Assembly: GCA_902630945.1 (NCBI GenBank)
Contig: CACOWV010000006.1
Coordinates: 1-39,618, forward strand
DNA from: an uncultured Pelagibacteraceae bacterium
GTDB lineage: Bacteria; Pseudomonadota; Alphaproteobacteria; Pelagibacterales; Pelagibacteraceae
Direction: 5' to 3'
DNA length: 39,618 nucleotides
Position 1 is the first letter of the stretch. Every line of letters begins with the position of its first letter. Shown piece after piece: positions 6,986 to 33,148 of the stretch. The position numbers and the translations under genes were made by a program. The notes under the pieces were generated by a model. That model saw only the letters and a list, made by a program, of their open reading frames with translations, had not been told where the DNA came from and searched no databases.

Positions 6986-6994
6986 AAAAAAGAT

Positions 6995-7456: not shown

Positions 7457-7490
7457 TTTTTTTTTGATAAATTTTGTGTAAAATATTGTT

Positions 7491-7868: not shown

Positions 7869-8420
7869 ATGTCAAAAGAAAACTATTTAAACAAAATTAA
7901 AGATTTACCAGAAACTATAAAACAATTTGGAGGCTTGGTGCTTATAGTTCTTATCATATTTATTTCTTTTTCTGTTTTAAATGTCATGTTTGGCGGGGGA
8001 GATGAATTGGTAAGAAAAATGAAGTTAGAGGAAGAAAGAATTGCTCAAGAAAAAAAGTTAAGTGAATTAATATCCAAACTACCTTCAGGAATATTAGTTA
8101 CTTTTGATGGCACTGAACACTTTAAATTAACAGATGAGGTATATGAACAGGTCTGTAAAGCAACAAAATTAATACCTCAAAGAGCAATTATGGGTGCTAA
8201 TTTTTTAAATTTTAGAGCGCATGAGATTTATACGATTAATGGAAATAAGATTGATGAAACATTTGTAAAGTGGGATGAGGAAAAAAATAAATGTTATGCA
8301 GGTTTTACAGTAAGTGGAGATAATGTTGGAGTTAACGAGTCCATAAGTGTTAGTGGTGAGGCATTAAGTTTTTTAAGCACTGGAATTGACACTAGAGTTT
8401 ACTTTATTAAAAATTTTTAA
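7869..8420 (+). CDS. Inner-membrane-anchored protein of unknown function
   Basis: 183 residues with one N-terminal transmembrane helix (about 23-42, LVLIVLIIFISFSVLNVMF), then a short charged coiled-coil-like linker (MKLEEERIAQEKKLSELISK, about 53-72) and a C-terminal domain of roughly 110 residues, probably periplasmic, with two cysteines (QVCKATK, NKCYAGF) that may pair. The start codon abuts the stop of the MORN gene. No domain recognised. The arrangement of anchor, stalk and small beta-rich domain suggests an envelope role. Confidence 0.68.
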   Translation: MSKENYLNKIKDLPETIKQFGGLVLIVLIIFISFSVLNVMFGGGDELVRKMKLEEERIAQEKKLSELISKLPSGILVTFDGTEHFKLTDEVYEQVCKATKLIPQRAIMGANFLNFRAHEIYTINGNKIDETFVKWDEEKNKCYAGFTVSGDNVGVNESISVSGEALSFLSTGIDTRVYFIKNF

Positions 8421-8486
8421 GGGGGAAAAACAACAATATTATGGATTTAATTTTATCTTAATTTCATATAACTTGATTAAAAATTT

Positions 8487-9515
8487 ATGTCAGATCCAGT
8501 AATCAAATGTGAAAATGTTTATAAAATTTTTGGAGCAAATGCTCAAAAGATGCTTCAAGATTCTAATGGCAATGTTGATGCTAAAACTTTTCAAGACAAT
8601 GGATGTATTGTTGGAGTAAACAATGCTTCATTTGAAGTTTCTAAAGGTGAGATGTTGGTTGTTATGGGTTTGTCTGGTTCAGGAAAATCAACTTTATTAA
8701 GATGTATTTCAAGATTAACGGATGCAACTGGGGGAAAAATTTTTATTGAAGGTCAAGATTTATTACAATTAAACAACAAAGATCTCATTGATCTCAGAAG
8801 AAATAAAATGGGAATGGTTTTTCAAAGTTTTGCTTTGCTTCCACACAAAACTGTAGTTGAGAATATAGCTTTTCCACTTCAAATAAAAGGAGTGAAAACT
8901 GAAGAAAGTATTAGTAAAGCAATGGATATGGTTAAGTTGGTTGGACTGGATGGAAGAGAAAATTATTTTCCGAGAGAGTTATCAGGAGGACAACAACAAA
9001 GAGTAGGTATAGCAAGATCATTAGCTGTAGAACCAGATATATGGTTTTTAGATGAACCTTTTTCTGCTTTAGATCCATTAATTAGAAAAGAAATGCAAGA
9101 TGAGTTTTTAAGACTTCAGGAAAAATTACAAAAAACAATTATGTTTATTACTCATGATTTTGATGAAGCTTTAAAACTTGCTGACCGGATTGCTATCATG
9201 AAAGATGGCATAATTGAGCAGCTAGATACACCTGCAAATATAGTTTTGAATCCTGCTACGGAATACGTGAGAAAGTTTACAGAGGAAGTCCCTAGAGAAA
9301 AAGTCTTATTAATTGAAGATGTAATGGATAAATCTAAAGATAATCTTGGTGATTTAAAAGTTTCAAAAGATGAAATAATAGAGAATGTTGCTGAAAAAAT
9401 TTTAACTCAAGAAAAATCTGTTGCTGTAGTTGATAGTAATAACGAAATTATTGGTTCTATTAATCCGACTAAAATAATTAACACAGTTTTTGGAGGGAGA
9501 AAAAATAATAATTAA
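8487..9515 (+). CDS. tmoW: TMAO ABC transporter ATP-binding protein TmoW
   Basis: 342 residues, OpuAA/ProV-type importer ATPase. Walker A GLSGSGKST (61-69), Q-loop in MVFQSFALLP (about 110-119), signature LSGGQQQ (165-171), Walker B IWFLDEP (185-191) and switch His in FITHDFDEA (about 221-229) are all intact. The C-terminal 90 residues form a regulatory extension resembling a degenerate CBS region (ending AVVDSNNEIIGSINPTKI). It lies 3 bp before tmoV, the permease, and energises TMAO uptake with TmoX. Upstream is a 66-bp gap without a good Shine-Dalgarno, which may hold its own promoter because the tmoX terminator blocks read-through. Glycine betaine/choline transport is the alternative specificity. 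Confidence 0.9.
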   Translation: MSDPVIKCENVYKIFGANAQKMLQDSNGNVDAKTFQDNGCIVGVNNASFEVSKGEMLVVMGLSGSGKSTLLRCISRLTDATGGKIFIEGQDLLQLNNKDLIDLRRNKMGMVFQSFALLPHKTVVENIAFPLQIKGVKTEESISKAMDMVKLVGLDGRENYFPRELSGGQQQRVGIARSLAVEPDIWFLDEPFSALDPLIRKEMQDEFLRLQEKLQKTIMFITHDFDEALKLADRIAIMKDGIIEQLDTPANIVLNPATEYVRKFTEEVPREKVLLIEDVMDKSKDNLGDLKVSKDEIIENVAEKILTQEKSVAVVDSNNEIIGSINPTKIINTVFGGRKNNN

Positions 9516-9518
9516 ATT

Positions 9519-11672: not shown

Positions 11673-11679
11673 TTCTAAT

Positions 11680-13011
11680 CTATTTATCTAAAAAAGTTTT
11701 TAATGAATCATCCATAGCAGTTGCCCATGGTGTATGATGAATTGGAGCAACAGAACCCGTCACAGGTGAAGAAAAAGATTTGTTTCTATAAGTTAATATA
11801 TCTTCAACTTTATGATGTTCCCATTCTTTAAAATGCTTTCTTATTAATTCAAAATCAATTTTTGGATAATCTGACATTTCATGAAGTTCTTTTGTATATT
11901 CAGTTTGAAAATCTATCATTTGATCTGGATTTTCTAATTTTTCCTCCATAGCAACCCATTTATTGATATCACTCTCAATTTCTTTATCATTTGGTATTTT
12001 AATTTTATTCATTATTACATCCCTTGCGTACCAAGCCTGACAATCAAACATATTAAATGTATGAAACTGATCCTGCATGCCAAGATATAAAAGTTTATGA
12101 TTATCCTGCCAAACAACTCCTTTATATAGTTTTGGTGGGTATAATCTATTTCTAGTTTTTAATTGTAAACTCTCTTCTAAAAAAGGAAAATGATGAAGAT
12201 AACCAGTGCATAAAATTATAACATCTGCTTCTTGTTCTGTGCCATCTTTAAAAATTGCCTTTTTGCCTTCCAATTTATCAAGGTAATGAACTTCTTTCAT
12301 TCCTTTTGGCCATTTAAATCCCATTGGATTGTGACGGTAACCAATAGTAACACTTTTAGCTCCGTATTTATTGCACTGAAGCGCAATGTCTTCTGCTGAG
12401 TAACTACTTCCCAGCACTATTACATTTTTATCTCTAAATTCTTCTGCATCTCTAAAGTCATGAGAATGCATTATTCTTCCAGGGAATGTATCCATCCCTT
12501 TGTATTCTGGAATAAATGGAACTGAAAAGTGACCTGTTGATACAACAACAAAATCAAAATTATCTTTTAATATTTTGCTACTAACTTTATCTTGATAACT
12601 AAGCTCAAATTTTTTATTTTTAAAAATAGTATTAATAACTCTAGTATTAAATTTTATCTTTTTTTTTAAATTCCCCTTACTTGCTCTTCCAACAATATAA
12701 TCATATAAAACTTCTCTAGGCGGGAAAGATGGTATTGATTTCCCAAAGTGCTCATCAAAGGAGTAATCTGCAAATTCTAAACACTCTTTTGGTCCATTTG
12801 ACCAAAGATATCTATACATACTATTAGGAACAGGGTCTCCGTATTGATCAGATCCTGTTCGCCAGCTGTAATTCCATAAACCTCCCCAACTATCTTGTTT
12901 TTCAAAACAAACAACTTCAGGGATTTTTTCACCATTTTTTTCCGCTAATTCAAAAGACCGTAACATTGATAGTCCACAAGGCCCTGCACCAATAATTGCT
13001 ACTTTTGTCAT
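11680..13011 (-). CDS. tmm: Trimethylamine monooxygenase Tmm (bacterial FMO)
   Basis: 443 residues, a flavin-containing monooxygenase. FAD site GAGPCG (8-13), NADPH site GSSYSAEDIA (201-210), FMO identifying region FPGRIMHSHDF (176-186), SNGPKE segment with Asn72 expected near the flavin, and LCTGY (267-271) are all present. The length and the bacterial-type C-terminus match Tmm, which oxidises trimethylamine to TMAO with NADPH and O2; bacterial Tmm can also oxidise other tertiary amines and DMS. Context with tdm and the TMAO importer makes this assignment strong. It is divergent from gpsA across a 77-bp AT-rich gap that carries two copies of a perfect palindrome. Confidence 0.92.
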   Translation of the reverse strand: MTKVAIIGAGPCGLSMLRSFELAEKNGEKIPEVVCFEKQDSWGGLWNYSWRTGSDQYGDPVPNSMYRYLWSNGPKECLEFADYSFDEHFGKSIPSFPPREVLYDYIVGRASKGNLKKKIKFNTRVINTIFKNKKFELSYQDKVSSKILKDNFDFVVVSTGHFSVPFIPEYKGMDTFPGRIMHSHDFRDAEEFRDKNVIVLGSSYSAEDIALQCNKYGAKSVTIGYRHNPMGFKWPKGMKEVHYLDKLEGKKAIFKDGTEQEADVIILCTGYLHHFPFLEESLQLKTRNRLYPPKLYKGVVWQDNHKLLYLGMQDQFHTFNMFDCQAWYARDVIMNKIKIPNDKEIESDINKWVAMEEKLENPDQMIDFQTEYTKELHEMSDYPKIDFELIRKHFKEWEHHKVEDILTYRNKSFSSPVTGSVAPIHHTPWATAMDDSLKTFLDK

Positions 13012-13088
13012 TAATATACCAAATTAAATAATTATTTATGTATTTTACTAACAAAATGATGACAATTACAATAAAATAATTATTTGTT
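13012..13088. promoter_or_regulatory. tmm / gpsA divergent promoter region with paired palindrome
   Basis: The 12-bp perfect palindrome AAATAATTATTT occurs twice in this 77-bp gap, at 13026-13037 and 13074-13085 (48 bp apart). The first copy extends to 14 bp (TAAATAATTATTTA). Position beside both start codons suggests operator or promoter function, but the base composition (A/T only) makes chance occurrence plausible. Confidence 0.35.
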
Positions 13089-14051
13089 ATGAAAAATATC
13101 TTAGTTATTGGCGGAGGTGCTATGGGCTCTGCATTTACAATCCCAAGTTTAGAAAATAAAAATAATGTGACAATTACAGAACCTTATAGCAAAAGATTTA
13201 TTAAAGACCTATCCTCTAAAAAAAAATTTCATTCTGCTCTAAAGATAAAATTACCAAAACAAGCAAAATTTAGAAAATTTTCCAAAAATTTATTAAAAGA
13301 AAATTTTGACTTAATAGTAATAGCCTTAAGTCTTCCAGGTATTGATTTTATTGGTAAAGAATTAAAAAATTTAAGAGTTAAAACACCAATTTTGGTTTTG
13401 ACTAAAGGTCTAAAATTTGAAAAAAAAAAGAATAAGATTTTAACAATTCCAGAACAGCTCCAAAAAAACTATAATTTAAAAAATGTTTCAGTCCTTAAAG
13501 GACCTTGTTTGGCAAAGGAATTAGCCAGAAAAAATCAAACTAGTGTAATTATAGCCAACAAGAATATTAAAATTGCAAAATCTATTGGTAGAAAAATTTC
13601 TACAAAATATTATTTAACAGAATACTCCAAAGATGTGGTTGGAGTAGAAGTATGTTCAGCAATAAAGAATATATATTCAATGATTATTGGAGCTGGTCAA
13701 AACCTTAATTCCTCATCAAATTTATTTCAAAAAGCAATTCTTGAAATGAGATACTTAAACAAGTTTTTTAAAGGCAAAGATGAAACAATCCTAGGGCTTG
13801 CTGGGGTAGGTGACTTATATGTTAGTGCCGCAGGTGGAAGAAACAGTAAGATGGGAAGTTTTTTAGGAAAAGGATTTAAATTTAAAACTGCAAAAAAAAG
13901 ATTTATGCCCAAAGAGACTGTTGAAGGTGAAGAACTTGCAAAAGAGATTGCACCATTCATTTTAAAAAAAATTGATAAGAAGAAAATTCCATTAATGATT
14001 AATTTACTAGAAACAATTAAAGAGAATAAAAAATTTAAGATAAAAGTTTAG
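13089..14051 (+). CDS. gpsA: NAD(P)-dependent glycerol-3-phosphate dehydrogenase GpsA
   Basis: 320 residues. N-terminal NAD(P) motif GGGAMGSAF (8-16), KGPCLAKEL (137-145), catalytic Lys193 in [13 protein letters not shown], and GLAGVGDL (236-243), all diagnostic of GpsA. It reduces dihydroxyacetone phosphate to sn-glycerol 3-phosphate for phospholipid synthesis. The protein is lysine-rich and about 15 residues shorter than typical GpsA. It shares a divergent promoter region with tmm and converges on fhs, whose stop overlaps its own by 4 bp. A metabolic link to methylamine use is not evident; proximity may reflect genome compaction only. Confidence 0.9.
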
Positions 14052-15733
14052 AATAGACCTTCTATATCACCATTTTTATTAAGCTTAATAGAGTCAGCTG
14101 CGGGTACTCTTGGAAGTCCAGGCATTGTCATGATTGCTCCACAAACAACAACTATAAATTCTGCACCTGATGAAAGCCTAATCTCCCTAATTGGTAAAGA
14201 GTGACCTGTCGGAGCACCTTTTAAACTTGGATCTGTAGAGAAACTATATTGAGTTTTCGCAACACATATAGGTAATTCACCATATCCAGATTCCTCAAAG
14301 TTTTTTAATTGATCTCTGATTTTTGTATCCGCAATAACTTCATCAGCTCTATAGATTTCTTTTGCTATAGTTTCTATTTTTTTGAAAAGTGGAGTTTTAC
14401 TTTCGTATAAAAATTTAAATTTTGCTTCATTTTTCTCACATAAATCTGTTACATGTTTAGCTAAATCTTTTGTTCCTTCGCCACCATCAGCCCAGTGCTT
14501 ACAAACACTAGCATTTACTCCCAGCTTTTTACAAAATTCAACTAAAGCATTTACCTCTTTATCAGTATCTTTTATAAAATGATTTATGGCTACGGCCACT
14601 GGTAAACCAAATTTTTTTACGTTTTCAATATGTCTCTCAAGGTTTATCAATCCTTTCTTAAGCGCATCGACATTTTCATTTTTTAAATCATCTTTTGCAA
14701 CACCACCATGCATCTTTAAAGCTCTTATGGTTGCAACTATAACAACACAACTTGGTTTTAAATTTGATTTTCTACATTTTATATCTAGAAATTTTTCAGC
14801 ACCTAAATCTGCCCCAAAACCTGCTTCTGTAACGACATAATCAGCAAGTTTTAATCCAGCTTTAGTTGCAATTACTGAATTACATCCATGTGCAATATTT
14901 GCGAACGGTCCACCATGAATTATTGCAGGATTATTTTCTAAAGTTTGTGTAATATTGGGTCTGATTGCTTCTTTTAGCAAAACAGTCATCGGCCCATGAG
15001 CATTTAAGTCTTTAGCATAAATTGGTTTTTTCTCTCGTGTGTATGCTACTGTGATATTTCCAATCCTATTTTCTAAATCCTCAAGATTATTAGCAAGACA
15101 AAAGATAGCCATTATCTCAGAAGCAACCGTAATATCAAAACCATCTTCTCTTGGAAAACCATTAGCGACACCGCCAAGATTAATATTTATTGATCTTAAG
15201 GCCCTGTCGTTCATATCCATAACTCTTTTCCAAACAATTCTTCTGACATCTATGTTTAATTTATTTCCCCAGTAGATATGATTATCAATTAAAGCTGACA
15301 AAAGATTATGAGCAGATGTTATAGCATGAAAATCTCCAGTGAAGTGAAGATTAATTTGTTCCATAGGAACTACTTGTGCATATCCGCCTCCTGCAGCGCC
15401 ACCTTTCATTCCAAAAGATGGACCTAAACTTGGTTCCCTTAAGCATACAATAGATTTTTTTCCAATTTTGTTTAATCCATCATTTAATCCAACAGAAGTA
15501 GTTGTTTTACCTTCTCCAGCAGGGGTTGGAGTTATTGCTGTAACTAAAATTAATTTACCATCTGGTTTATTTTTTAATGTATCTAAATATTCTAAGTTTA
15601 TTTTTGCAATATGCCTGCCCATTGGACTAAAAGCTGAGCTTTCATCTGGAACATTTACCTTTGCTAAAATATCCTTAATCGGAAGCATTTTTGCTTCACG
15701 AGCAATTTGAATGTCTGATTTTATGTCGCTCAT
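14048..15733 (-). CDS. fhs: Formate-tetrahydrofolate ligase
   Basis: 561 residues, the usual length of Fhs. The ATP-binding P-loop is [11 protein letters not shown] (68-78); [20 protein letters not shown]-type substrate loop follows near residue 100, and the C-terminus has the family's [11 protein letters not shown] segment. The enzyme interconverts formate + THF + ATP with 10-formyl-THF. In a methylamine-oxidising cell it is thought to run toward formate to recover ATP from methyl groups entering as methylene-THF. Divergent from the sox/mgd operon and only 4 bp overlapping gpsA at the 3' end, it is placed to act on the C1 units produced by its neighbours. Confidence 0.95.
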
Positions 15734-15859: not shown

Positions 15860-17116
15860 ATGCAAAAATATTCAGTTTTTAGTCTTGTTAAAAATGCACT
15901 TTCAAATCACGAAAATTGGGACTTGGCTTGGAAAGACCCAACTCCTAAGAAAGAATATGATGTTGTAATTATTGGTGGCGGTGGGCACGGCTTAGCAACA
16001 GCATATTATTTAGCGAAAGAACATAATATTAATAATGTTGCTATAATTGAAAAAGGTTGGATTGGGGGCGGTAATGTTGGTCGAAACACCACAATAATCA
16101 GATCAAATTATATGCATGATGATAATGCATTATTCAGCGAATTTGGAATGGATCTTTGGAGAAGAATGAGTCAAGATTTAAATTACAACGTAATGTTTTC
16201 TCCAAGAGGAATAATAAATCTCGCTCACTCAGATGCTCAAATGAATATATATGCTCGAAGAGGGAATTCGATGAGATTAAATGGAATCGATGCAGTGCTT
16301 TTAAATAGGGAAGAGGTTAAAGAAATTATTCCCATGGCTGATTTTTCTGAAAATGTAAGATTTCCAATCTTTGGTGGATTAATGCAGCCTAGTGCAGGAA
16401 CAGCTAGACATGATGCTGTTGCCTGGGGTTATGCACGTCAAGCAGATGATATGGGTGTTGATATAATACAAAATTGTGAAGTAATTGGGTTTGATGTGTC
16501 CGCAGGGAAAATTAATGGAGTGAGAACTTCTCGTGGAGACATTAAAGCAAAAAAAATTGGATTATGTGTTGCGGGAAGTACAAATATTTTAGCAGAAAAA
16601 TTAAACATGACATTACCAATTGAGACTCATTTATTACAAGCATGTGTATCTGAGCCAGTGAAACCAGTTTTAGATAAAGTAGTTACTTTTGGTGCTGGAC
16701 ATTTTTATATCAGCCAGTCTGACAAAGGAGAAATGGTAATGGGTGGTGATCTTGATGGCTATAATAGTTATGCTCAAAGAGGCAATCTTCCAACACTTCA
16801 ACATGTTCTGACAGAAGGAATAGCAATGATGCCTTTCTTGAGTAAATTAAAAATGCTTAGAACTTGGGGAGGAATAATGGATATGTCTATGGATGGTTCT
16901 CCCATAATAGATAAAACGCACATTGAAGGTTTGTATTTGAATTGTGGTTGGTGTTATGGTGGATTTAAAGCAACACCTGCATCTGGTTGGACATTTGCAC
17001 ACACTATTGCACAAGATAGAGTTCATGAATTAAACGCAGGTTATAGTTTAAATAGATTTAATACTGGTCACTTACTTGATGAAAAGGGACTTGGCACAAA
17101 AACTTGGATTTCATAA
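15860..17116 (+). CDS. soxB: Heterotetrameric sarcosine oxidase / N-methylglutamate dehydrogenase-type beta subunit (SoxB/MgdA)
   Basis: 418 residues, the expected size for SoxB or MgdA. FAD motif GGGGHG (39-44) within DVVIIGGGGHGLATAYY. His184 in TARHDAVAW corresponds to the region where heterotetrameric sarcosine oxidase covalently binds FMN. First gene of a tightly packed four-gene operon (beta-delta-alpha-gamma order), with its stop immediately before the delta-subunit ATG. SoxBDAG oxidises sarcosine to glycine; the homologous MgdABCD oxidises N-methylglutamate to glutamate, both passing the C1 unit to THF. Because Tmm, Tdm and glutamyl-amide ligase genes lie nearby, MgdA is a reasonable functional reading, but sarcosine from dimethylglycine (a DMGDH gene is at 36.4 kb) is an equal possibility. 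Confidence 0.88.
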   Translation: MQKYSVFSLVKNALSNHENWDLAWKDPTPKKEYDVVIIGGGGHGLATAYYLAKEHNINNVAIIEKGWIGGGNVGRNTTIIRSNYMHDDNALFSEFGMDLWRRMSQDLNYNVMFSPRGIINLAHSDAQMNIYARRGNSMRLNGIDAVLLNREEVKEIIPMADFSENVRFPIFGGLMQPSAGTARHDAVAWGYARQADDMGVDIIQNCEVIGFDVSAGKINGVRTSRGDIKAKKIGLCVAGSTNILAEKLNMTLPIETHLLQACVSEPVKPVLDKVVTFGAGHFYISQSDKGEMVMGGDLDGYNSYAQRGNLPTLQHVLTEGIAMMPFLSKLKMLRTWGGIMDMSMDGSPIIDKTHIEGLYLNCGWCYGGFKATPASGWTFAHTIAQDRVHELNAGYSLNRFNTGHLLDEKGLGTKTWIS

Positions 17117-17386
17117 ATGCTTTATATAAATTGTCCACACTGTGGAATGAGATCACAGAATGAATTTTCTTATGGTGGGGATGCAAGCGTAAAAAGGCCT
17201 GAGTTAGGCAAAGAAGTATCGGACCAAGAGTGGAATAATTTTGTTTATAATAGAAAAAGCTTAAGAGGAAAACATTGGGAGTTGTGGCAACATTTGTTTG
17301 GGTGTCGACAGTGGATTAAAGTTGAAAGAGATACAGCTACACACGAAATTTTTAGTACATTAAAAGCTAATGAGGAAATTTCATAA
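17117..17386 (+). CDS. soxD: Sarcosine oxidase / N-methylglutamate dehydrogenase-type delta subunit (SoxD/MgdB)
   Basis: 89 residues, a small zinc-binding subunit. Cys6 and Cys9 (INCPHCG) with His59 and Cys63 (QHLFGCRQW) form the expected zinc site of SoxD. It contributes to assembly of the complex and contacts the alpha subunit. Its ATG follows the beta stop directly, and its own stop overlaps the alpha start by one base (TAATG), indicating translational coupling and fixed stoichiometry. Confidence 0.92.
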   Translation: MLYINCPHCGMRSQNEFSYGGDASVKRPELGKEVSDQEWNNFVYNRKSLRGKHWELWQHLFGCRQWIKVERDTATHEIFSTLKANEEIS

Positions 17387-20382
17387 TGCCCCAAGACTTT
17401 AGACTTAAAGATGGTGGATTGATAAATAGAGATAAAAAAATCTCATTTAAATTTAATGGAAAAGAATATTTTGGTTATGAGGGAGATACTTTAGCATCAG
17501 CTCTTATAGCTAATGGAGTCCATTTAATTGGTAGAAGCTTTAAGTATCATAGGCCAAGAGGTTTTTTTGGAGCAGGAGTTGATGAGCCATATGCAATAAT
17601 TCAACTATATAGAAATGGTGAAACTGAACCAAATATTAAAGCTACAGAACAAGAACTTTTCGAAGGTTTGGAGGCAAAAAGCGTAAATTGTTGGCCAAGT
17701 GTGAATTTTGATATAGGTGCAATAAATAATTATTTAAAAATTTTTCTTCCAGCAGGTTTTTATTACAAAACATTTATGTGGCCAAAAAGTTTTTGGTATA
17801 GAATTTATGAACCATTTATTAGAAAAGCTGCTGGATTAGGAACTGCCTCAATCAAACACGATAAAGAGAGATATGAACATAAGTATGAATATTGTGATTT
17901 ATTAGTTACTGGCTCAGGTCCATCTGGCTTAGCAAGTGCTTATGCAGCTGCTAAAAATGGAGCGAGAGTAATTTTGGCAGAGGATAAATCTAGATTTGGA
18001 GGAAGTTTACTTACGAGCGAAGTAAATATAGGAAATCAATCTGGAAAAGAATGGGCTGATAGTATTATTTCAGAGCTTAAAGAGATGCCAAACGTAACCG
18101 TCAAAAATAGATCTCAAGTTTTTGGTTATTACGATCATAATATGCTTGTAATGTCTGAAAGAATTAGTGATCATTTACCACAAACAAAAAAATTTCATCC
18201 TAAACAAAGACTTTGGTATATAAGAGCTAAAGAAGTTTTAATTTCATCTGGATCAATTGAAAGACCAATAGTGTTTGGAAATAACGATACACCAGGTGTG
18301 ATGTTATCTTCAGCAGCTAAAGAATATATTAAGGTTTACGGTGTTGTGGTTGGGAAAAATCCGCTTATATTTACAAATAACGATAGTGGTTATGAAACAG
18401 CAATTGAGTTTAAGAAGAATGGTATTAATCCAATTATTTTAGATACGAGAAAAGATCCTAATTCTGAAATTGTTGATGAGGCAAAAGATTTGGGAATTAG
18501 TATAAAAAATTCATATGTAGTTGTTGCTGCCCAAGGATACAAGAAAGTAAAATCAGCTGATATTGCAAAAATTTCAGATGATAAAGAACAACTTGGTGCA
18601 ATAGAAAATATAAAATGTGATTGTATTTGTGTTTCAGGGTTTTGGACACCGACAATACATTTAGCTTCTCAATCAGGAAATAAAACTAAGTTTAACGAAA
18701 ATATAGATGCATTTGTTCCAGGAATATCTAAACAAAATGAAAAGACAATAGGTGCTGCTAATGGAATTTTTACTTTAGATGAAACATTGAAGAGTTCATT
18801 TACAATAGGCCAAGAACTTTCAAAAAAAATAACAAATAATGATAATAAATTTTCTTTCCCAAATGTTGTTGAAAAAAAATCAACCGCACATGATAAATTT
18901 TGGTGCGTACCACTACCTAAGGGAAAAAATTATAAGCGGTTTTTGGATTTTCAAAATGATGTTGCTGTTTCAGATATAGAGATTGCTTTAAAAGAAGGTT
19001 ATCGTTCAATTGAACATGTAAAAAGATACACCACCCTTGGGATGGCCACAGACCAAGGTAAAACAAGTAACCTTAATGGATTACAATTGGTCTCAAAAAT
19101 AGAGAATAAAGTTGTTCCAGCAGTTGGACACACTACTTTTAGACCACCTTATACACCTGTTTCAATAGGAGCAATTGTTGGTAGAGAAGTTGGCAAACAC
19201 TCTAAGCCAACAAGAAAATCTCCAATGCATTCATGGCATGAAAAGAATAATGCTGTTTTTGTAGATGCAGGTGTATGGTTAAGACCTAGATATTATAAGC
19301 GAGGAAACGAAAATTTATTTGAAGCGTCAAAAAGAGAAGCTAAAAATGTCAGAACAAATGTTGGAGTTTGTGATGTTACTACACTTGGTAAAATAGATAT
19401 TAAAGGTCCAGATGCAGCAGAGCTTTTAAATAGGGTTTACACTAATGCATGGTTAAAGTTACCTGTAGGAAAAGCTAGATATGGCGTAATGTTAAGAGAA
19501 GATGGGATTGTTATGGATGATGGTACCACAACAAGAATATCTGAAAATCATTACCATATGACAACAACAACTGCACAAGCTGCAAATGTACTTTCTCATT
19601 TAGAGTATTACCTTCAATTAGTTTGGCCTGAGTTAAATGTGAATGTAGTTTCAACTACTGAACAATGGGCTGGGGCTGCTATCGCAGGACCAAAATCAAG
19701 AGATTTATTAAAGAAATTATTCCCAAAATCTGATGTATCAAACGAAGGACTTCCTTTTATGGGCTATTTGGAAGGTGATTTATTTGGCGTAAAAGCAAAG
19801 ATTTTTAGAATTTCATTTTCTGGTGAGCTTGCATATGAGGTGAATGTTGAGTCTGACAATGGAAATTTCATGTGGGAAAAAATTATTGAGGCTGGCCAAG
19901 AATTTAAAATTCAACCTTATGGTACTGAAGCATTATCAACTCTTCGAATAGAAATGGGACATGTTGCTGGCTCTGAATTAGATGGAAGAACTATCCCTTA
20001 TGATAACTCACTAGAGGGATTAATAAGTAAAAAGAAAGATTTTATTGGAAAAAGATCTCTATCAAGAAAAGCATTTACGGCAGACGATAGACAAAAAGTT
20101 GTAGGCGTAGTTCCTTTAGATAAAAAAACAAGTATTCCAGAGGGATCCCATTTGGTGAAAGACTCTAAAGCACCACTTCCAAATCCGAAATTGGGTTATA
20201 TCTCAGCTTCTTGCTGGAGTGTTGAGCATGATAATCCCTTTTCTTTAGCTATTATCAAAGATGGAAAAAACATGATTGGAAAAAAATTATTTGTAATGTC
20301 ACCACTTAAAAATAAGATAATACCAGTAGAAATAGTGTCTTCGCATTACGTTGATCCTAAAGGTGAGAGAGTAAGATCATGA
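17386..20382 (+). CDS. soxA: Sarcosine oxidase / N-methylglutamate dehydrogenase-type alpha subunit (SoxA/MgdC)
   Basis: 998 residues in three parts: an N-terminal Fer2_4-like segment (about 15-100, with [18 protein letters not shown]), a pyridine nucleotide-disulfide-like NAD(H)-binding region with GSGPSG (176-181), and a C-terminal GcvT-type folate domain (from about 615, with [10 protein letters not shown] and [12 protein letters not shown]). Oxidation of the N-methyl group occurs in the beta subunit; the iminium/formaldehyde equivalent passes to THF in this C-terminal domain as 5,10-methylene-THF. Overlaps the delta gene by one base and the gamma gene by four (ATGA). The full length rules out truncation. 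Substrate choice (sarcosine or N-methylglutamate) cannot be read from the sequence. Confidence 0.9.
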
Positions 20383-20966
20383 GTTCAATATCAGCTTTGG
20401 CTAACATTCATTTATTAGGAAAATTTGGTGATCAAGAAGGAAAAAAAGAAAATGATCTGATAAAAATTTCTGAAATTAAAAATCTATTAATTGTTCAAAT
20501 AGTCCAATATAAAAGTTCTACAATTTCTCCTGATAAAATAAATATTGACAGTTTAAGTTTCGTTAATGAACCACTAAAAGTAATTTGTAATGATAATACA
20601 AGAATTTTGTGGAATAGTCCAAAAAATTGGTTTTTAATCTCAACTAAAAAAGAATTACTCAATAATATTTTATCAACATTTAAAGAGACAGATTTTGCAA
20701 TTACTGATTTGTCTCATTCAAGAGCGATAATTGAAATGGAAGGAAAAGATGCAATAGAGGTATTAAAAAAAGGATGTCCATTTAATTTTAATATTTTAAA
20801 GAAAAATAATTCAATTAATTCTTCATATAACAGCATAGCATTTACATTAGATATAATTAATGACAATCCAAACAGATTAAGATTGTTTGCACTCAGAAGT
20901 TTTGGTGAGTCTTTATATCACTCGATAACCGATGCTTCGTTGGAGTTTGGATATAAATCAATATAA
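20379..20966 (+). CDS. soxG: Sarcosine oxidase / N-methylglutamate dehydrogenase-type gamma subunit (SoxG/MgdD)
   Basis: 195 residues, a GcvT-related SoxG-type subunit. Recognised by position at the end of the beta-delta-alpha operon (4-bp ATGA overlap), size, and the segments [13 protein letters not shown] and [28 protein letters not shown], which match the SoxG pattern of an LGPDEWL-like strand followed by DxSxxR and a GxxAxxLLxKGCP motif. It stabilises the complex against the alpha-subunit folate domain. Ends 5 bp from the convergent EamA gene. Confidence 0.85.
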
Positions 20967-26008: not shown

Positions 26009-26863
26009 ATGGAAAGATATTCTCAAAATGATGAAGATGTATTTATATTAGAAATGTTTAAAAAAAAAAGCCTAGAGAATTGTTTTTTTTTTGAATTTGG
26101 GGCCTGGGATGGAATTTATTTAAGCAATTGTAGACTTTTATACGAAAATAATTGGTCAGGTTGTTTTGTTGAATATGATAAAAAAAAATTTCAAGAATTA
26201 CAAAATAATTATAAAAATAGTAATAATATAATTTTGATTAATGATAAAATTGATCCTGAAAAAAAAAATATTAATGAATTAATTAAAAATTATAATATTT
26301 CAAAAATAGATGTTTTGTCTATAGATGTTGATGGTAGAGATTTGTCGATTTGGAAAAGTCTTAACATTTTATCTCCTAATATAGTTGTAATAGAATTTAA
26401 TGACACAATACCTTTTGATACAATTTTTGAAGATATGACAAATAAAAGTATAGGCAGTAGTTTTCCAGCTATTAACAATTATGCAAAAAGTAAAGGATAT
26501 GAATTAATTAAAGCAACAAGGGATAATTTGATATATTCTAAAAAAGAATTTAACAATGGCATGTTTAAACCATTAACTCAATTAGAATTATACGATCTGT
26601 GTAAACCCATTAGAGTTGGTTTTAATAATTTTGGTGAATATTTGTTTTTTAATAATCATAAATTAGAATTCAATGAACTATTTAGAAGTCCTCTTGTAAA
26701 ATCATTTATAACGTTTCAACCTATTCCAAAATTTTTAAGAAAAATGACAGATACAAATGGTAAGGGAGCAAAACTTTTAAAAAGAATTTATTCATTAATA
26801 GTATTAATTTTATTGCGACCAAATTTATTTATAAAGTATTTATTTGGGAAAATTAGGAAATAA
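26009..26863 (+). CDS. FkbM-like SAM-dependent methyltransferase
   Basis: 284 residues. The FFFEFGAWDGIYLSNCRLL segment (about 26-44) is the FkbM-type SAM-binding GxxxGxxS-like motif I, followed by acidic CFVEYDKKKF (motif with ribose-binding Glu) and VLSIDVDGRDLSIWK (motif post-II). FkbM proteins O-methylate sugars, polyketides or glycans. A C-terminal basic helix (SLIVLILLRPNLFIKYLFG) looks amphipathic or membrane-associating. It is two bases from the M19-like gene and so probably cotranscribed with the unknown four-gene run, though its role there is unclear. Methyl acceptor unknown. Confidence 0.78.
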   Translation: MERYSQNDEDVFILEMFKKKSLENCFFFEFGAWDGIYLSNCRLLYENNWSGCFVEYDKKKFQELQNNYKNSNNIILINDKIDPEKKNINELIKNYNISKIDVLSIDVDGRDLSIWKSLNILSPNIVVIEFNDTIPFDTIFEDMTNKSIGSSFPAINNYAKSKGYELIKATRDNLIYSKKEFNNGMFKPLTQLELYDLCKPIRVGFNNFGEYLFFNNHKLEFNELFRSPLVKSFITFQPIPKFLRKMTDTNGKGAKLLKRIYSLIVLILLRPNLFIKYLFGKIRK

Positions 26864-26865
26864 TT

Positions 26866-27831
26866 ATGAATTATAAAATCGATAATTTACAATATTGTAA
26901 TTGGTCTAGAAAAATTTTTGAAATAAATAGAGAAGCAGGCTTGGATGCTGTTCATGTTACAATTGTTTATCACGAAGATTTTAATGAATTATCAAAGGAA
27001 ATAAAAAAATGGGAAAAATTATTTAAAGATAATTCAGATCTAATTTTTTTAGGAAAAAATTTTAGTGACATTGAGAAAGCAAAAAAAGAGAATAAAACAG
27101 CAATCTTTTTTGGTTTTCAAAACTGCTCTCCTATTGAGGATGATATAAATTTGGTAGAAAAAGTTTTCAGACTTGGATGTAGATTTATGCAATTAACTTA
27201 CAACAATCAATCTTTGTTAGCCACTGGTTGTTATGAAAAAATAGATAGTGGAGTTACTAATTTTGGTCGAGAGGTAATTAAAGAAATGAATAGAGTTGGA
27301 ATTGTGGTTGATATGTCTCATTCTGCTGAAAAAAGTACTTTTGATGCAATAGAAATAAGTCAAAAACCAATTGCAATTACACATGCAAATCCTTCTTTTT
27401 GGCATGCAGCAAAAAGAAATAAATCTTCTGAGTTGTTAAAAGTTTTAAGTGAAAGTGGAGGTGTTTTGGGATTTTCAATTTATCCCCATCATTTAAAAGA
27501 TAATACTAACTGTACTTTAGAAAGTTTTTGCGAAATGATAGCAAAAACTGCAGAAATTATGAGCGCAGCCAATATAGGAATAGGCTCTGATCTTTGCTTA
27601 AATCAACCCGATAAAGTTGTTGAGTGGATGAGGAATGGTACGTGGTCTAAGAGTAAAAATTATGGAGAGGGTTCAAAAAATAAGCCAGGCTTTCCTAAAC
27701 AACCTGAATGGTTTAAGGATGCAAGGGGTTTTAGTAATTTAGAAAGAGGATTAAAAAAAGTAGGTTTTTCTGAAACTGAGACCAATGGGATACTTGGTAA
27801 TAATTGGTACAATTTTTATAAAACTATTTGA
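26866..27831 (+). CDS. M19 (renal dipeptidase-fold) protein lacking canonical metal ligands
   Basis: 321 residues, membrane dipeptidase superfamily: VVDMSHSAEKSTFDAI (His152), ITHANPS (His173) and IGSDLC (Asp242) are the conserved beta-barrel motifs. The N-terminal HxD metal pair typical of M19 is absent (the start reads IDNLQYCNWSRKIF), and the bridging Glu position looks like Gln85 in GFQNCSPIED. Loss of those ligands argues against ordinary dipeptidase activity. As I remember it, a similar variant lies next to dimethylglycine demethylation genes in Pseudomonas (dgcA region), which fits the methylated-amine genes here. Its TGA is followed within a few bases by the 553-residue gene. Probably cytoplasmic: no signal peptide. 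Confidence 0.75.
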   Translation: MNYKIDNLQYCNWSRKIFEINREAGLDAVHVTIVYHEDFNELSKEIKKWEKLFKDNSDLIFLGKNFSDIEKAKKENKTAIFFGFQNCSPIEDDINLVEKVFRLGCRFMQLTYNNQSLLATGCYEKIDSGVTNFGREVIKEMNRVGIVVDMSHSAEKSTFDAIEISQKPIAITHANPSFWHAAKRNKSSELLKVLSESGGVLGFSIYPHHLKDNTNCTLESFCEMIAKTAEIMSAANIGIGSDLCLNQPDKVVEWMRNGTWSKSKNYGEGSKNKPGFPKQPEWFKDARGFSNLERGLKKVGFSETETNGILGNNWYNFYKTI

Positions 27832-27833
27832 AA

Positions 27834-29495
27834 ATGAATATAGATTTGCGTGATCCAAACGAAATTATGAAACTTTCCAGACTTGGATCGTTTCATCAGT
27901 CCAGATTGTCTTTTTTAAGAAGTTTTTTAGATGAATTTAAAGATTGGAATTATAATAGAGATTTATTTAATTTAGATAAAAATGGATTTGGAACTGCAGT
28001 TTATTCTTTTAAAAAAAAGGATAGAGTTTATTCCTTAGTTTGTTTTGCAAATGAAATTCATGAACATGAGAGATCTGATAGAGTGATCGCAACAAAATGG
28101 GATGCTGCTTTTACTTTACATGATGGTCAACCTTCAAATGAGGATATAGAAAGGTTGAGGAGTCAAGTCCCAAAACAAGAAGTTGGTCGACTATCATATA
28201 AAGAACTTACATTGTCTCGAGCAAATAAGTCGATAAGAGTATTTGATCATGTTGTTGAATCCTTAAGCAGAGGTACTCAACCAAATTTAGATTTACTGAG
28301 CAAAGTTGGTTATTTATATAGAACAACAGCAGTCTATGGTTCAGGAAAATTTGGATTAGCTGATCGTTTTAGAATAAAAAATAGAAATGAAATTAATGGA
28401 CCTTTTAGATTAGAAATGATGCTTGTATATTTGGTAAGACAATTTACTTTTGATCAAGTAAATCATGTCGCGAAGAGCAAAGATCCAAAAAAGGCAGTAA
28501 AACTTGATTTAAAAATTTGTAAAAATCTTGGTATTGGAAATTCTACTGGATTAGGTATGGCGCCGTTTATAGTAAATCACCCAACATTACTTAATAATTG
28601 GATTCTTTGTAGAGAAACTGCATTAAAGGAAATTAGACAAATTAAAAATGTTAAAAAAAAAGATAGTGACTTATTTAAAAGATGTGTAAGAAATTCTATA
28701 AAAAATATCACAAGTTGGAATACTGACAGTAAATATCAATTAGGAAAAATTAAATCTTTACTAAGAGATGTAAAAAAGTTTTTAAATTTTGTTGAAAATG
28801 TATTTGACTTTAATCAGGACTACGCATTTAATAAAATTTACTTGTGGATTGAAAAAGAAACTTGCGAAGAGTGTATAGAGTACATCGTTTCATTAATGAT
28901 GGAGCCATATAGCGAAATTGTTACCCCATTAGTAAAAAAAATGAGTTCAGATGAAGAAAAATATTTTACAATTCCAACAGATCGATCAGTAGGAGAATTA
29001 AAAGATATTCTTGAAAAAAAATATAAAGATGTACTAGAAATTGATTTTAACAGAAAAGAAAATTTAAAAAAATTTTGGTTTATTTCAAAAAATAAAGAAG
29101 AACCAAGGCTTGCTGACCGTTATGAGGAAAAAGGATCTGAGTTAGAACAGCCTTTAGCAATAGCAAGAGATATTAAGAGACTTTATGAAAAATTAAAAAA
29201 TTTTAGTAATGATTTTACTTTAGATTATTTTTTAATTGAAAATCCAGATGTTAGACATGTTGTAAGAAGAGCCTTTATAATTGAAAAATTTCCTTATTCA
29301 GAAATTCAAGATAATACAATTGGAAAAAATTTAGTACCAATTGATATGTTAAGACTAAAGTTATCTTTTTTTGGCGCTTTGAAATTTGATCCTAAGTCTG
29401 ACAAGTGGCTTCGAATATGCATGTTTCAGGGAGCGCCTTTGCCTTTTGAATTAAAAGATTATGATGAGGAATGGGTTTATAAGGCTCATTTTTAA
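27834..29495 (+). CDS. Large protein of unknown function in M19-DUF3726 cluster
   Basis: 553 residues from ATG 27834; a TTG at 27828 overlapping the M19 stop could add two residues. No signal peptide or membrane segment; the protein is charged and mostly helical. Distinct segments that look conserved: DLRDPNEIMKLSRLGSFHQSRLSFLR at the N-terminus (in parts), HDGQPSNEDIERLRSQVP, YRTTAVYGSGKFGLADR (about 165-185), GNSTGLGMAPFIVNHP (about 235-250) and a C-terminal IENPDVRHVVRRAFIIEKFPYSEIQ. I do not recognise an enzyme family. The glycine-rich and aromatic motifs suggest a real catalytic or ligand-binding domain. Tight coupling to M19-like and DUF3726 genes is the only functional clue. Confidence 0.72.
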   Translation: MNIDLRDPNEIMKLSRLGSFHQSRLSFLRSFLDEFKDWNYNRDLFNLDKNGFGTAVYSFKKKDRVYSLVCFANEIHEHERSDRVIATKWDAAFTLHDGQPSNEDIERLRSQVPKQEVGRLSYKELTLSRANKSIRVFDHVVESLSRGTQPNLDLLSKVGYLYRTTAVYGSGKFGLADRFRIKNRNEINGPFRLEMMLVYLVRQFTFDQVNHVAKSKDPKKAVKLDLKICKNLGIGNSTGLGMAPFIVNHPTLLNNWILCRETALKEIRQIKNVKKKDSDLFKRCVRNSIKNITSWNTDSKYQLGKIKSLLRDVKKFLNFVENVFDFNQDYAFNKIYLWIEKETCEECIEYIVSLMMEPYSEIVTPLVKKMSSDEEKYFTIPTDRSVGELKDILEKKYKDVLEIDFNRKENLKKFWFISKNKEEPRLADRYEEKGSELEQPLAIARDIKRLYEKLKNFSNDFTLDYFLIENPDVRHVVRRAFIIEKFPYSEIQDNTIGKNLVPIDMLRLKLSFFGALKFDPKSDKWLRICMFQGAPLPFELKDYDEEWVYKAHF

Positions 29496-29496
29496 A

Positions 29497-30108
29497 ATGA
29501 AATCTTTAAGTGAAATAGAGACAACAGCAAAAAGAGCAAGTCGAGCTGCCGGATTTTCTTGGGGAATAGCTGAGGAAATTGGTAAAAGTATTAGATTATT
29601 AGAACTATTTGGTTTACCAGGAATAAAAAATTTGAACCAATATTTTCATAATGAAGATAGAAAAAAATTTGAAAATATTAAATTCATACATGAAAAGAAT
29701 ACAATTAAAAAATTTTCTTATTGTCCAATCACACTTGGCATAGGTTTTCTTGATCAGGCAAAAAAATTAGAGAAATTCAATAAATGTAATTTTCAAGATC
29801 TTGCATATCCAATATTGTTATTACCATTTTTAAGTAGATGTTCTGAAATTACAGGAAAAAAAATTTGTTTATCATTCAATGAATATTATTTTGTATTAAA
29901 TTTTAATATCAAAATTTTATCAAATTTTTTGAAAGAAGATTTTCCCACAAGAGCAAAAAATGTTGAAGTTAGTTTTTTAGAGAACAAAGATAATTTTAAT
30001 GATCAGGATTGGAAAAAACTTTATAAACTTTCTGAAAATACATTTGTAGAAGAGTCTGATAGTCTAAAAGAAAGCGCTGCAGGAGCAGGTTTAACAGATA
30101 ATGACTAA
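29497..30108 (+). CDS. DUF3726 family protein
   Basis: 203 residues from ATG 29497; an in-frame upstream extension overlaps the previous gene and is not needed. The N-terminal SLSEIETTAKRASRAAGFSWGIAEEIGK and the C-terminal SAAGAGLTDND (quoted in part) match the DUF3726 signature as I know it. No membrane segment. Function of the family is unknown to me. It starts one base after the 553-residue gene and its end overlaps the 53-residue zinc-ribbon gene by 8 bp, so the cluster is polycistronic. Confidence 0.72.
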   Translation: MKSLSEIETTAKRASRAAGFSWGIAEEIGKSIRLLELFGLPGIKNLNQYFHNEDRKKFENIKFIHEKNTIKKFSYCPITLGIGFLDQAKKLEKFNKCNFQDLAYPILLLPFLSRCSEITGKKICLSFNEYYFVLNFNIKILSNFLKEDFPTRAKNVEVSFLENKDNFNDQDWKKLYKLSENTFVEESDSLKESAAGAGLTDND

Positions 30109-30262
30109 TCAAAAAGAAATTCAAGAAAAAAACTTAGAAGATTTAGATGATATTTGTGACGAATGTAGAGAAAAGGATGAAAGTGTATCACAAAATTTAA
30201 TCATGACAGGATTTAAAATATGTAAATCATGTAGAATTTCAAAAACTATTTTTCCAATTTAA
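30101..30262 (+). CDS. 53-residue double-CxxC zinc-ribbon-like protein
   Basis: A short gene overlapping the end of DUF3726 by 8 bp in another frame. The 53-residue product has two CxxC pairs: Cys19-x-x-Cys22 (DICDECRE) and Cys41-x-x-Cys44 (KICKSCRI), separated by 18 residues, the classic four-Cys zinc ribbon or small rubredoxin-like spacing. Acidic first half, basic second half. Position and the cysteine pattern make it a real gene in my judgement. It would be missed by gene callers with a length cut-off. A role as a metal-dependent partner of the upstream proteins is a guess. Confidence 0.68.
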   Translation: MTNQKEIQEKNLEDLDDICDECREKDESVSQNLIMTGFKICKSCRISKTIFPI

Positions 30263-30964: not shown

Positions 30965-32323
30965 TTAACCTTTTACAACTTCCCTAGTATTCGCATTGAA
31001 AGATTCTTTGAATGGAATATCAACAACTACTGCATCCACGGGTGTTCCAGGTTTATCTGAGTATTTTTCAGGCAAATGTACTTTATATTTTGTTCCAACC
31101 TTTCCTTTTGGAAAACCATTTGAATTCAAAGTTCCATCAAAAGGAACATATCCCATAGCAATATTCTTTTTTTTTTCTGGGTGATACCAAGGAGAAGTAA
31201 TAAATCCGACAGGATTCCCACCTCCTTCATTTGAAACAAGCCAAAAATCTGGCGCATAGTCTTCAATTGGTTTTCCGCCCATTTCAAGACCGACTAGTTG
31301 AAGTTTGTATGGTTTCTTTCCGTCCTTGAGTTCATTTTTCATTTTTTCAAGAGCAGTTTTTCCAACATAATCTGCTTTTTTATTCCATTCTCCTTTACCG
31401 GATAGTGAAACTTGATAACCTAGGTTACACTGAAAAGGATTGTGTTGTTGATCCATGTCCTGTCCCCAGGAAAGTATCCCAGCTTGAATTCTTCTGTGAT
31501 GAGCAGGAGCAATTACCATTAGGTTATGTTTTTTTCCAGCCTCAAGCACAGCATTCCACATATCTTCAGCATATAAAGTTGCATTTCTTAAATATATTTC
31601 ATACCCAGCTTCACCTGAAAAGCCTGATTGTGAAATTACACAACTTCTTCCACCTACTTTAACCTCTGCTAATCCATAGAAAGGCATATTATCAAAATCA
31701 ACTTGATCTCCACAAAGATCTTTCATCAAAGCTTTTGATTTAGGACCTTGAATTTGAACTGGACATGCATCTATTTCCTCAACAGTACAATTAAATCTTC
31801 CATCAGCGTTAACACCTTGAAGGTACATACCTATATCAGAGTCTGATAGAGAAAACCAAAATTCATCCTCTGAAATTCTCAAAAGTATTGGATCATTTAA
31901 TACACCACCATAAGCATTACATAAAATTACGTACCTCGCCCTCATTGGTGAAATTTTAGTTGCATCTCTAGTTATAACGTAGTCAGTAAATTTCTCTGCA
32001 TCAGGACCTTTAACTCTAATTTGTCTTTCAACAGCAACATTCCACATAGTTACATGATTTACTATCGCATCATACTCAACCATAGCTCCACCATCTTCTG
32101 GTTTTACATATCCCCTTGGGTGATAAATACGATTATAAACTGTCGCTCTCCAGCAACCTGCTTGCATTGATAGATGCCAATAAGGTGATTTTCTTACTCT
32201 TGTTGAAATAAGCATTTCAACTTTAGTTGGCCCACTTTGTCTTAAGTTGTATGGTACTTCTCTATCTGATTGATCAACAGAAGTAACATGTTTCAATTTA
32301 GTATAGTCAAATTCTTTAGACAT
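30965..32323 (-). CDS. GcvT-fold tetrahydrofolate-dependent methyltransferase (aminomethyltransferase-like, possible demethylase)
   Basis: 452 residues, the fold of GcvT/DmdA/LigM THF methyltransferases: VERQIRVKGPDAEKFTDYV (about 99-117), YGGVLNDPILLRI (138-150), VQIQGPKSKALM (189-200) and SGFSGEAGYEIY (233-244). It lacks a lipoyl-partner context and is longer than glycine cleavage T-protein. One Asp of the usual Gly-Gly-x-x-Asp-Asp folate loop is Asn here (GGVLND). Overlaps by 8 bp with a MetF-like gene, a pairing seen for demethylases that pass methyl groups to THF and then oxidise methyl-THF. It does not resemble DmdA closely, so DMSP demethylation is possible but not favoured; the methyl donor is unknown. 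Confidence 0.82.
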   Translation of the reverse strand: MSKEFDYTKLKHVTSVDQSDREVPYNLRQSGPTKVEMLISTRVRKSPYWHLSMQAGCWRATVYNRIYHPRGYVKPEDGGAMVEYDAIVNHVTMWNVAVERQIRVKGPDAEKFTDYVITRDATKISPMRARYVILCNAYGGVLNDPILLRISEDEFWFSLSDSDIGMYLQGVNADGRFNCTVEEIDACPVQIQGPKSKALMKDLCGDQVDFDNMPFYGLAEVKVGGRSCVISQSGFSGEAGYEIYLRNATLYAEDMWNAVLEAGKKHNLMVIAPAHHRRIQAGILSWGQDMDQQHNPFQCNLGYQVSLSGKGEWNKKADYVGKTALEKMKNELKDGKKPYKLQLVGLEMGGKPIEDYAPDFWLVSNEGGGNPVGFITSPWYHPEKKKNIAMGYVPFDGTLNSNGFPKGKVGTKYKVHLPEKYSDKPGTPVDAVVVDIPFKESFNANTREVVKG

Positions 32324-33044
32324 AACTATTCTCCTTCAACCACTTGTTAGTTTCCTTCAAGCCGCCGAATGTATAAATGTGGAAGAAATCAGTATGTGAT
32401 TTAACTTTCCCAATTAAATCATTAGGGTCTTTAGGTTTCAATAAATCTAACGCCTTAGTAAAATTAGATTTAAGAAAGTTAAGAGAATTTTTTGCCCCTA
32501 CAATATTAGCAAATTTTACTAAGCTAGATATTTTTAAAGGCCCAGTAATTCCCACATGAACTGGTACGCTTTGCTTAGATATAAAATCAATGATAGGCTG
32601 AGGATCTAATAACCATTGGGTTACAATATAGTCAGCATAAGGCTTTTTATCTATCATAGCTTTTTCTAAAACTGAGTCGGATATATCAGGACTCCCCTCG
32701 GGGTGTCCAGCTATTCCTATTGTCATCTTCTCAAAATAACCAGTCTCTAAAAGCTGGAATGAGCTATCAAATTTTCCAACTGGCTCTCGACCCCCGCCGA
32801 TTACCAATACTTGTTTAACCCCTCCATCTTTGCATCTAGAGATATAATCTTTAAGCTCTTTTTCATTATGCATCGATCTAGCAGGAAAATGAGGCACTGG
32901 ATTAAAGCCCTTCTTAACTAACGCAACTGCTTGTTGTGCTGTCTCTTTATAATCTCCGCCGGGTAACATTGTTATGTAAATATCATTAACTGGAGGAACG
33001 CTATCAAGATCTGTTGTTGGGCTTATTTCTAGAGAAAAATTCAT
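32316..33044 (-). CDS. MetF-like methylenetetrahydrofolate reductase domain protein (short)
   Basis: 242 residues from ATG 33044 (FSLEISP start is the natural domain beginning; an upstream ATG at 33080 adds 12 residues). The N-terminal LEISPT strand, HFPARSMHNEKELKDYI (about 75-90), VLVIGGGREPVG (about 100-111) and GIAGHPEGSPD (about 130-140) match the MTHFR TIM barrel, including the IAGYPEGHP-type motif. Shorter than full MetF (about 290-300). The paired GcvT-like gene and DMGDH suggest work on 5-methyl-THF or 5,10-methylene-THF from demethylation, probably in the oxidative direction. Lacks part of the usual C-terminal helices, so activity should not be assumed identical to MetF. Confidence 0.8.
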   Translation of the reverse strand: MNFSLEISPTTDLDSVPPVNDIYITMLPGGDYKETAQQAVALVKKGFNPVPHFPARSMHNEKELKDYISRCKDGGVKQVLVIGGGREPVGKFDSSFQLLETGYFEKMTIGIAGHPEGSPDISDSVLEKAMIDKKPYADYIVTQWLLDPQPIIDFISKQSVPVHVGITGPLKISSLVKFANIVGAKNSLNFLKSNFTKALDLLKPKDPNDLIGKVKSHTDFFHIYTFGGLKETNKWLKENSYV

Positions 33045-33148
33045 TTTATAGATAATTATCTTTTTTGAAAAAGCTGTCAAAGAATTTTATTAAATGACGC
33101 AATGAAATTTGTTGCTTAAATTGAGTGAGTTGTTAACTATTTAATGAC

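Follow-up and report, generated by a model that had tools for sequence, protein, structure and literature searches.

A conserved trio of an M19 variant, a 553-residue protein and DUF3726 in a Pelagibacteraceae contig, and its probable place in homarine catabolism

Which of the five genes packed head-to-tail at positions 26009-30262 of an uncultured Pelagibacteraceae contig (CACOWV010000006.1, assembly GCA_902630945.1) belong together, and what do they do? The contig was analysed from position 1 to 39,618, and this whole stretch of 39,618 nucleotides is called the window here. An earlier note, made from its letters alone, took the five genes for one undescribed system. The results showed that three of them, encoding a variant of peptidase family M19, a protein of 553 residues and a DUF3726 protein, are a conserved and co-inherited core that is found well outside SAR11 too, and that the FkbM-type methyltransferase and the four-Cys protein at the two ends are bystanders and not members of the core. 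We propose, with a probability of roughly 0.6, that the core is the heart of a pathway whose starting compound is an N-methylated ring acid resembling a betaine, with homarine (N-methylpicolinate) as the likeliest candidate, and whose product, N-methylglutamate, is converted to glutamate by N-methylglutamate dehydrogenase (Mgd). The operon concerned is probably the homarine operon published in 2026 and hence already known; newly added here are its SAR11 member, the Ldh_2-like fold predicted for DUF3726, and a model of the 553-residue protein to which no structure was matched.

The genes of the core and their neighbours

All five genes have + orientation; 2, 2 and 1 bp separate the first four, and the last two overlap by 8 bp, the tight packing that the earlier note had described. 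The first (26009-26863) encodes the FkbM-type methyltransferase (Pfam Methyltransf_21, 1.3e-9) and the second (26866-27831) the M19 variant, whose Pfam Peptidase_M19 match spans residues 15-318 (5.2e-70). They are followed by the gene for the 553-residue protein (27834-29495), by that for the DUF3726 protein (29497-30108; Pfam DUF3726, 1.6e-23) and by that for a mini protein of 53 residues with four Cys in CxxC arrangement (30101-30262), which belongs to no Pfam family. The 553-residue frame starts with the ATG at 27834, and an alternative TTG six bases upstream would give 555 residues; the DUF3726 frame has a further open ATG upstream, at 29461. Comparison across genomes showed that the packing of the three central genes goes beyond chance, whereas that of the FkbM and mini-protein genes is local.

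The 553-residue gene was found in 45 of the 147 genomes of the window's family, the window's own genome counted, and 20 regions chosen from 553-positive family genomes were compared. The M19 gene is directly upstream in 19 of these SAR11 regions and the DUF3726 gene directly downstream in all 20, while the mini protein comes after DUF3726 in 14. In a presence and absence set of 16 chosen SAR11 genomes, 4 with the 553-residue gene and 12 without it, the M19 variant is present in 4/4 of the former and 0/12 of the latter, and the mini protein in 4/4 and 6/12. In locus L135 the mini protein is placed beside Yip1, away from the core. A system of all five genes would account for their packing in the window genome and for the same five genes in locus L129, but an FkbM gene was found in only that one of the 20 other SAR11 loci, being not found in the remaining 19, and the CxxC protein occurs in half of the 12 genomes without the core. 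Such a system is extremely improbable; of the five-gene proposal, the part concerning the M19 variant, the 553-residue protein and DUF3726 stands, and the membership of the other two does not.

Two SAR11 genomes without the trio (G051 and G113, loci L191 and L192) have purE adjoining the mini-protein, Yip1, DmdA-like and MetF-like genes, a junction which indicates that the trio is a removable block. In the window, the DmdA/GcvT-like gene, encoding 452 residues, and the MetF-like gene occupy positions 30965-33080, and in many SAR11 genomes, whether or not these have the trio, the two form a pair next to Yip1 and the mini protein. The 452-residue protein scores 232 bits against the DMSP (dimethylsulfoniopropionate) demethylase cut-off of 410. 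A role of the trio together with these two neighbours in tetrahydrofolate-dependent demethylation would agree with their position just downstream in 13 of the 20 SAR11 loci, and a DmdA-like gene or a piece of one is also present in loci L096, L087 and L093. However, the two trio-less genomes have the pair too, still in the company of Yip1 and the mini protein, and among five loci of other genera the genes were not seen in four (some of them short stretches) and are about 5 kb away in the fifth; we hold this joint role to be very unlikely.

The co-occurrence of the three genes that the earlier note had expected holds beyond SAR11. A scan that returned at least 581 relatives of the 553-residue protein provided the loci called named here, of which the best 80 were used; they were ranked by a Ruegeria query and hence are mostly of Rhodobacterales, with metagenome-assembled genomes of Acidimicrobiales, Granulosicoccaceae and Rhizobiaceae also taken in. 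Neighbours in these and in the class-wide loci were counted only where the flank was sufficient. The M19 gene is at most 3.5 kb upstream of the 553-residue gene in 77/78 named loci, the single exception being L113, where it is divergent, and DUF3726 accompanies it in 77/77; a LysR gene is present in 52/71. Among the 34 class-wide loci, M19 is upstream in 26/33 and anywhere in the locus in 29/33, DUF3726 is present in 31/34, the Ldh reductase in 13/32 and an aldehyde dehydrogenase in 9/32. By genome, the 553-residue family was found in 43 of 289 genomes of the class and DUF3726 in 35, all of them inside the 43 and none among the 246 genomes without the 553-residue protein (Fisher p about 1e-37, kinship ignored). 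In Mesorhizobium the 553-residue protein and DUF3726 are fused into one protein. One metagenome-assembled genome has a 553-residue gene with an internal stop (L090, 10001-11686), and broken-looking copies were also seen in G194 and G218.

Predicted structures and conserved residues of the core proteins

The 553-residue protein had been described as lacking a known family, and it matched no Pfam family at E ≤ 1 and no NCBIfam model; the Pfam scan of 54 of its relatives gave a single match, at chance level, in one of them. Against the PDB, phmmer found nothing by sequence and the profile gave only chance-level matches (best E 0.56). The AlphaFold2 model has a predicted local distance difference test (pLDDT) value of 88.5 and a predicted template modelling score of 0.91. 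Foldseek searches with this full-length model gave no match at E ≤ 0.001 in the PDB (best 0.43, template modelling score 0.10) or among viral models, and the best VIA overlay reached Z 4.3 over 86 residues. The searches covered this long model as one piece, and a new fold is a candidate reading of their outcome. An alignment of seven divergent members has invariant columns, many of them Arg or Gly and several Trp, Asp or Glu, which include those of RxNxSxR, GxGN and EPR. The sole segment of the model under pLDDT 50, residues 170-172, is located within a GSGKFG loop, which could act as a mobile lid. A literature search gave nothing on the function of this central protein of the operon.

The DUF3726 model (pLDDT 83.7) points to the Ldh_2 family, which comprises malate/L-lactate dehydrogenases, ureidoglycolate dehydrogenases and delta1-piperideine-2-carboxylate reductases. 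In VIA, 15 Ldh_2 entries had Z 8.3-10.3 and the next entry 3.1, so that all entries with Z ≥ 8 are Ldh_2; the best overlay was 4h8a, at Z 10.3 over 158 residues. Ranks 1 to 15 in Foldseek were likewise Ldh_2 chains, although the best E was only 0.03. The proteins differ in size, Ldh_2 enzymes having about 335 residues and DUF3726 203, with about 105 residues gone inside the aligned range. The Ser-His of the Ldh_2 SHG motif aligned to a gap in 5/5 proteins from the DUF3726 position, and a His somewhere in the motif columns, present in 15 of 63 rows, is in no case conserved. By profile, DUF3726 gave only chance-level matches to the PDB (best 0.93), and hhalign against the Ldh reductase of the operon covered 40 columns only, with probability 13. 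Because of this weak alignment, the link to Ldh_2 relies on the fold and on a haloarchaeal protein at the DUF3726 position that matches Ldh_2 at 4.8e-9 (36.2 bits, the Pfam cut-off being 38.8). According to the model, DUF3726 has a shortened form of the Ldh_2 fold; since the Ser-His pair of the motif is missing, it is not expected to be a dehydrogenase. The family thereby gains its first structural meaning, that of a shortened Ldh_2 protein tied to the 553-residue family. Neither DUF3726 nor PA5396 or PA5397 was found in the literature search, and 2I5G gave only an unrelated match.

In the M19 variant of the window the N-terminal HxD is missing (IDNLQYCNW) and the bridging Glu is replaced by Gln85, as the earlier note had pointed out, whereas dipeptidases of the family have both. 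A relative was found in 104 of 106 loci; HxD occurs in 0/103 of the aligned N-termini, and position 85 is Gln in 103/104, the remaining one being unaligned there. This loss throughout the 103 aligned relatives indicates a real, old variant and not local decay. By contrast, His152, His173, Arg184, Asp242, Cys122 and Glu124 are identical in 104/104. We take His152 and His173 to be the second metal site and Asp242 the catalytic position, so that, judged from its residues, the variant retains half of its metal site, together with Arg184. By analogy with NagA-type amidohydrolases, hydrolysis could still be possible with one metal, bound at the second site, and an ordinary dipeptidase is unlikely. 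The nearest solved structure of the variant is 2i5g, annotated 'amidohydrolase' (2.3e-57). The ligand-poor M19 does then have a solved relative, presumably the product of the Pseudomonas gene beside dimethylglycine genes to which the earlier note refers.

From an N-methylated ring acid to glutamate

The full operon has five enzymes and a LysR gene. In Ruegeria TM1040 it consists of LysR, aldehyde dehydrogenase, M19, 553-residue, DUF3726 and Ldh genes, with a BCCT gene inside, and in the soil bacterium Aminobacter the same set is followed by a betaine ABC transporter. The profile of the operon Ldh (built with 19 of the 34 found) has as its best PDB chain 1wtj, a delta1-piperideine-2-carboxylate reductase, at 6.7e-68, the next being at 2.5e-45. 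A reductase of this type acts on a reduced pyridine-2-carboxylate skeleton. Homarine contains that ring, and the set of genes often found around the core fits its breakdown to N-methylglutamate. In the pathway proposed, the 553-residue protein and DUF3726 would work as a single complex in the activation and opening of the ring. Conversion of homarine to N-methylglutamate loses one carbon, and a break between C5 and C6 would leave it as an N-formyl group, creating a task for the M19 variant and a semialdehyde for the aldehyde dehydrogenase. The M19 variant, as a one-metal amidohydrolase, would cleave the N-acyl (probably N-formyl) bond, the aldehyde dehydrogenase would oxidise the semialdehyde, and the reductase would reduce a C=N or C=C bond beside the carboxylate. 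Finally, Mgd would convert N-methylglutamate to glutamate. The substrate and every reaction named are our proposal.

A homarine operon, homABCDER, is said to occur in Rhodobacterales and SAR11, with N-methylglutamate as its product. We infer the likeness of that pathway to the operon described here only from the gene count, the hosts and the Mgd link, and it differs in that the window's genus has only three operon genes together. The homarine catabolic pathway of environmental bacteria is reportedly the subject of Ferrer-Gonzalez et al. 2026 (Nat Microbiol 11:1531), the identity of its genes with those of our operon being unproven. PMC13390433 cites a recent report of a part played by Mgd in the catabolism of homarine. 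No other paper on genes of the homarine operon was found in the literature search, and the available passages of four papers name none. The word 'undescribed' in the earlier note is thus probably wrong, the operon very likely being that of the 2026 publication. Its link to amine metabolism, on the other hand, holds for methylated amines, with betaine transporters and Mgd-type genes near the core in some loci.

The Mgd-type genes were analysed in 144 operon loci with a SoxB-type filter (E ≤ 1e-20, at least 150 amino acids; distant flavin adenine dinucleotide proteins at 22-28% fall below it). All nine SoxB-type genes retained are nearer to MgdA, at 58-74%, the values for canonical sarcosine oxidase being 49-51%, and in trees those of Rhodobacterales share a clade with two Mgd sets located beside gmaS-mgs (L142 and L174). 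On a P. inhibens plasmid (W02) two copies of the 553-residue operon are present, at 154710-156365 and 198581-200227, one beside Mgd-type genes and one beside a DMSP demethylase gene. A Pseudosulfitobacter plasmid (L143, 1297-11462) has Mgd-clade SoxBDAG genes beside those for N-formylglutamate deformylase and formimidoylglutamate deiminase and purU. By genome, Mgd-type SoxB was found in 28/43 genomes with the 553-residue protein and 32/246 without it at 60% identity or more, and in 37/43 and 42/246 at E ≤ 1e-150.

The window itself contains SoxBDAG-type genes on the + strand at 15860-20966 (SoxB 15860-17116, SoxA 17386-20382, SoxG 20379-20966). The SoxB is 59% identical to R. leguminosarum MgdA, and the set joins the Mgd side in both trees (support 100/98 for SoxA and 99/94 for SoxB) as a long-branched neighbour outside the clade, SoxA being flagged for its unlike letter make-up. 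Since two related SAR11 genomes (G003 and G017) have a separate canonical sarcosine oxidase, the set in the window may serve SAR11 as its Mgd; the window's own genome, an incomplete assembly, yielded no such oxidase.

BCCT or glycine-betaine-type transporters, present in 33/63 named loci, adjoin the operon, and they would also suit a pathway for another betaine, such as stachydrine or N-methylproline. There the intermediate would be an N-methylated five-carbon semialdehyde, from which the aldehyde dehydrogenase makes N-methylglutamate while the Ldh acts on a pyrroline carboxylate; enzymes of the Ldh family also reduce pyrroline carboxylates. In L135, a SAR11 locus, a Rieske gene about 2.5 kb past the aldehyde dehydrogenase is in line with this, but in four operons, one each from Phaeobacter, Mesorhizobium, Ruegeria and Aminobacter, the genes annotated over 9-15 kb to either side include no Rieske demethylase. 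Moreover, stachydrine breakdown is not known to require an amide hydrolase or a new protein for ring opening. We regard this alternative as unlikely, though it is the foremost competitor of the homarine pathway.

Several observations weigh against the homarine pathway. The clade called Mgd is anchored by two loci only, which reduces our confidence; gmaS and mgs were not found in the remaining stretches examined, and one member of the clade adjoins purU and hutG, with no gmaS. The canonical sarcosine oxidase used as control also tracks the 553-residue protein (35/43 against 62/246), so that the association with Mgd is non-specific and reflects lifestyle as much as pathway. Linkage is incomplete, an aldehyde dehydrogenase being adjacent in 59/74 named loci and the operon-type Ldh in only 34/76. 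In SAR11 the aldehyde dehydrogenase adjoins the core in 2 of the 20 regions (L135 and L137), both outside the window's genus. In that genus only the core trio is clustered, so the aldehyde dehydrogenase and the reductase must be encoded elsewhere; the single Ldh_2 gene found in the window genome (an assembly 69% complete) is on another contig and is 36% identical to the operon type. Ldh_2 genes are present in 77 of the 147 family genomes and are uninformative about the core. No known oxygenase or flavin motif was seen in the 553-residue protein. In Ruegeria pomeroyi a search of the megaplasmid found no copy of its gene; this organism takes up homarine, according to PMC12817926.

A distant subfamily of the 553-residue protein (S. 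meliloti, Alloyangia, Neorhizobium) also counts against the proposed pathway, having a different gene order and transporter: IclR, 553-residue, DUF3726-like and M19 genes, then a spermidine-type ABC transporter (L234 8237-16626; L007 9139-17438, where the genes were named in this analysis). No M19 is annotated in another of its loci, L235. A haloarchaeal plasmid (L005, 7035-15285) has a 553-residue gene with an Ldh_2-like partner, an aldehyde dehydrogenase and a BCCT transporter, while a search of its 21.6-kb stretch gave no relative of M19. These loci, and the second copies that occur within single genomes, would suit a core of general use for N-acyl or N-heterocyclic acids, a module on which several pathways with different substrates have drawn, homarine being only one of these. 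Against this, the 553-residue protein of the window is a member of the main subfamily, with 44-46% identity to those of Ruegeria and Phaeobacter, and we give the general module slightly less weight still than another betaine.

Within the homarine pathway, physical contact between the 553-residue protein and DUF3726 would be consistent with their co-occurrence, their tight gene coupling and the one natural fusion. A more daring and rather doubtful version would make the 553-residue protein the first of its kind, an enzyme with a new fold whose opening of the pyridinium ring of homarine depends on assembly with DUF3726 into a heteromer. The latter would be a reductase-derived pseudoenzyme that holds or activates the substrate, and the N-formyl product would pass to the single-metal M19 variant.

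Surroundings of the core and its meaning in SAR11

The first part of the window (244-13011) holds a trimethylamine/trimethylamine N-oxide (TMAO) catabolic cluster. Within these 13 kb, the trimethylamine monooxygenase (Tmm) scores 735.5 bits against an NCBIfam cut-off of 675, the TMAO demethylase (Tdm) 1082.1 bits, near but below its cut-off of 1100, and a type-III-like glutamine synthetase well below its own; transporter genes lie between Tmm and Tdm. Rfam and tRNA scans of the window gave no match. A defence role for the core trio was set aside, PADLOC giving no match for its three proteins. In L135, from another SAR11 genus, an OpuAC binding protein and a bile-acid-symporter-type gene are upstream of the core and the aldehyde dehydrogenase is downstream (3116-8224), with a HalD/WelO5-like gene and a Rieske oxygenase beyond it (11539-14361).

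SAR11 bacteria are among the commonest in the ocean. If the homarine assignment holds, they keep the three core genes of this pathway as one removable block between purE and the four-Cys gene. Homarine is an osmolyte of marine diatoms, as stated in PMC9723723 and PMC12817926. Were the assignment true, its unexplained step would be performed by the 553-residue family, which is present in 43 of the 289 genomes of the class and for which no fold match was found.

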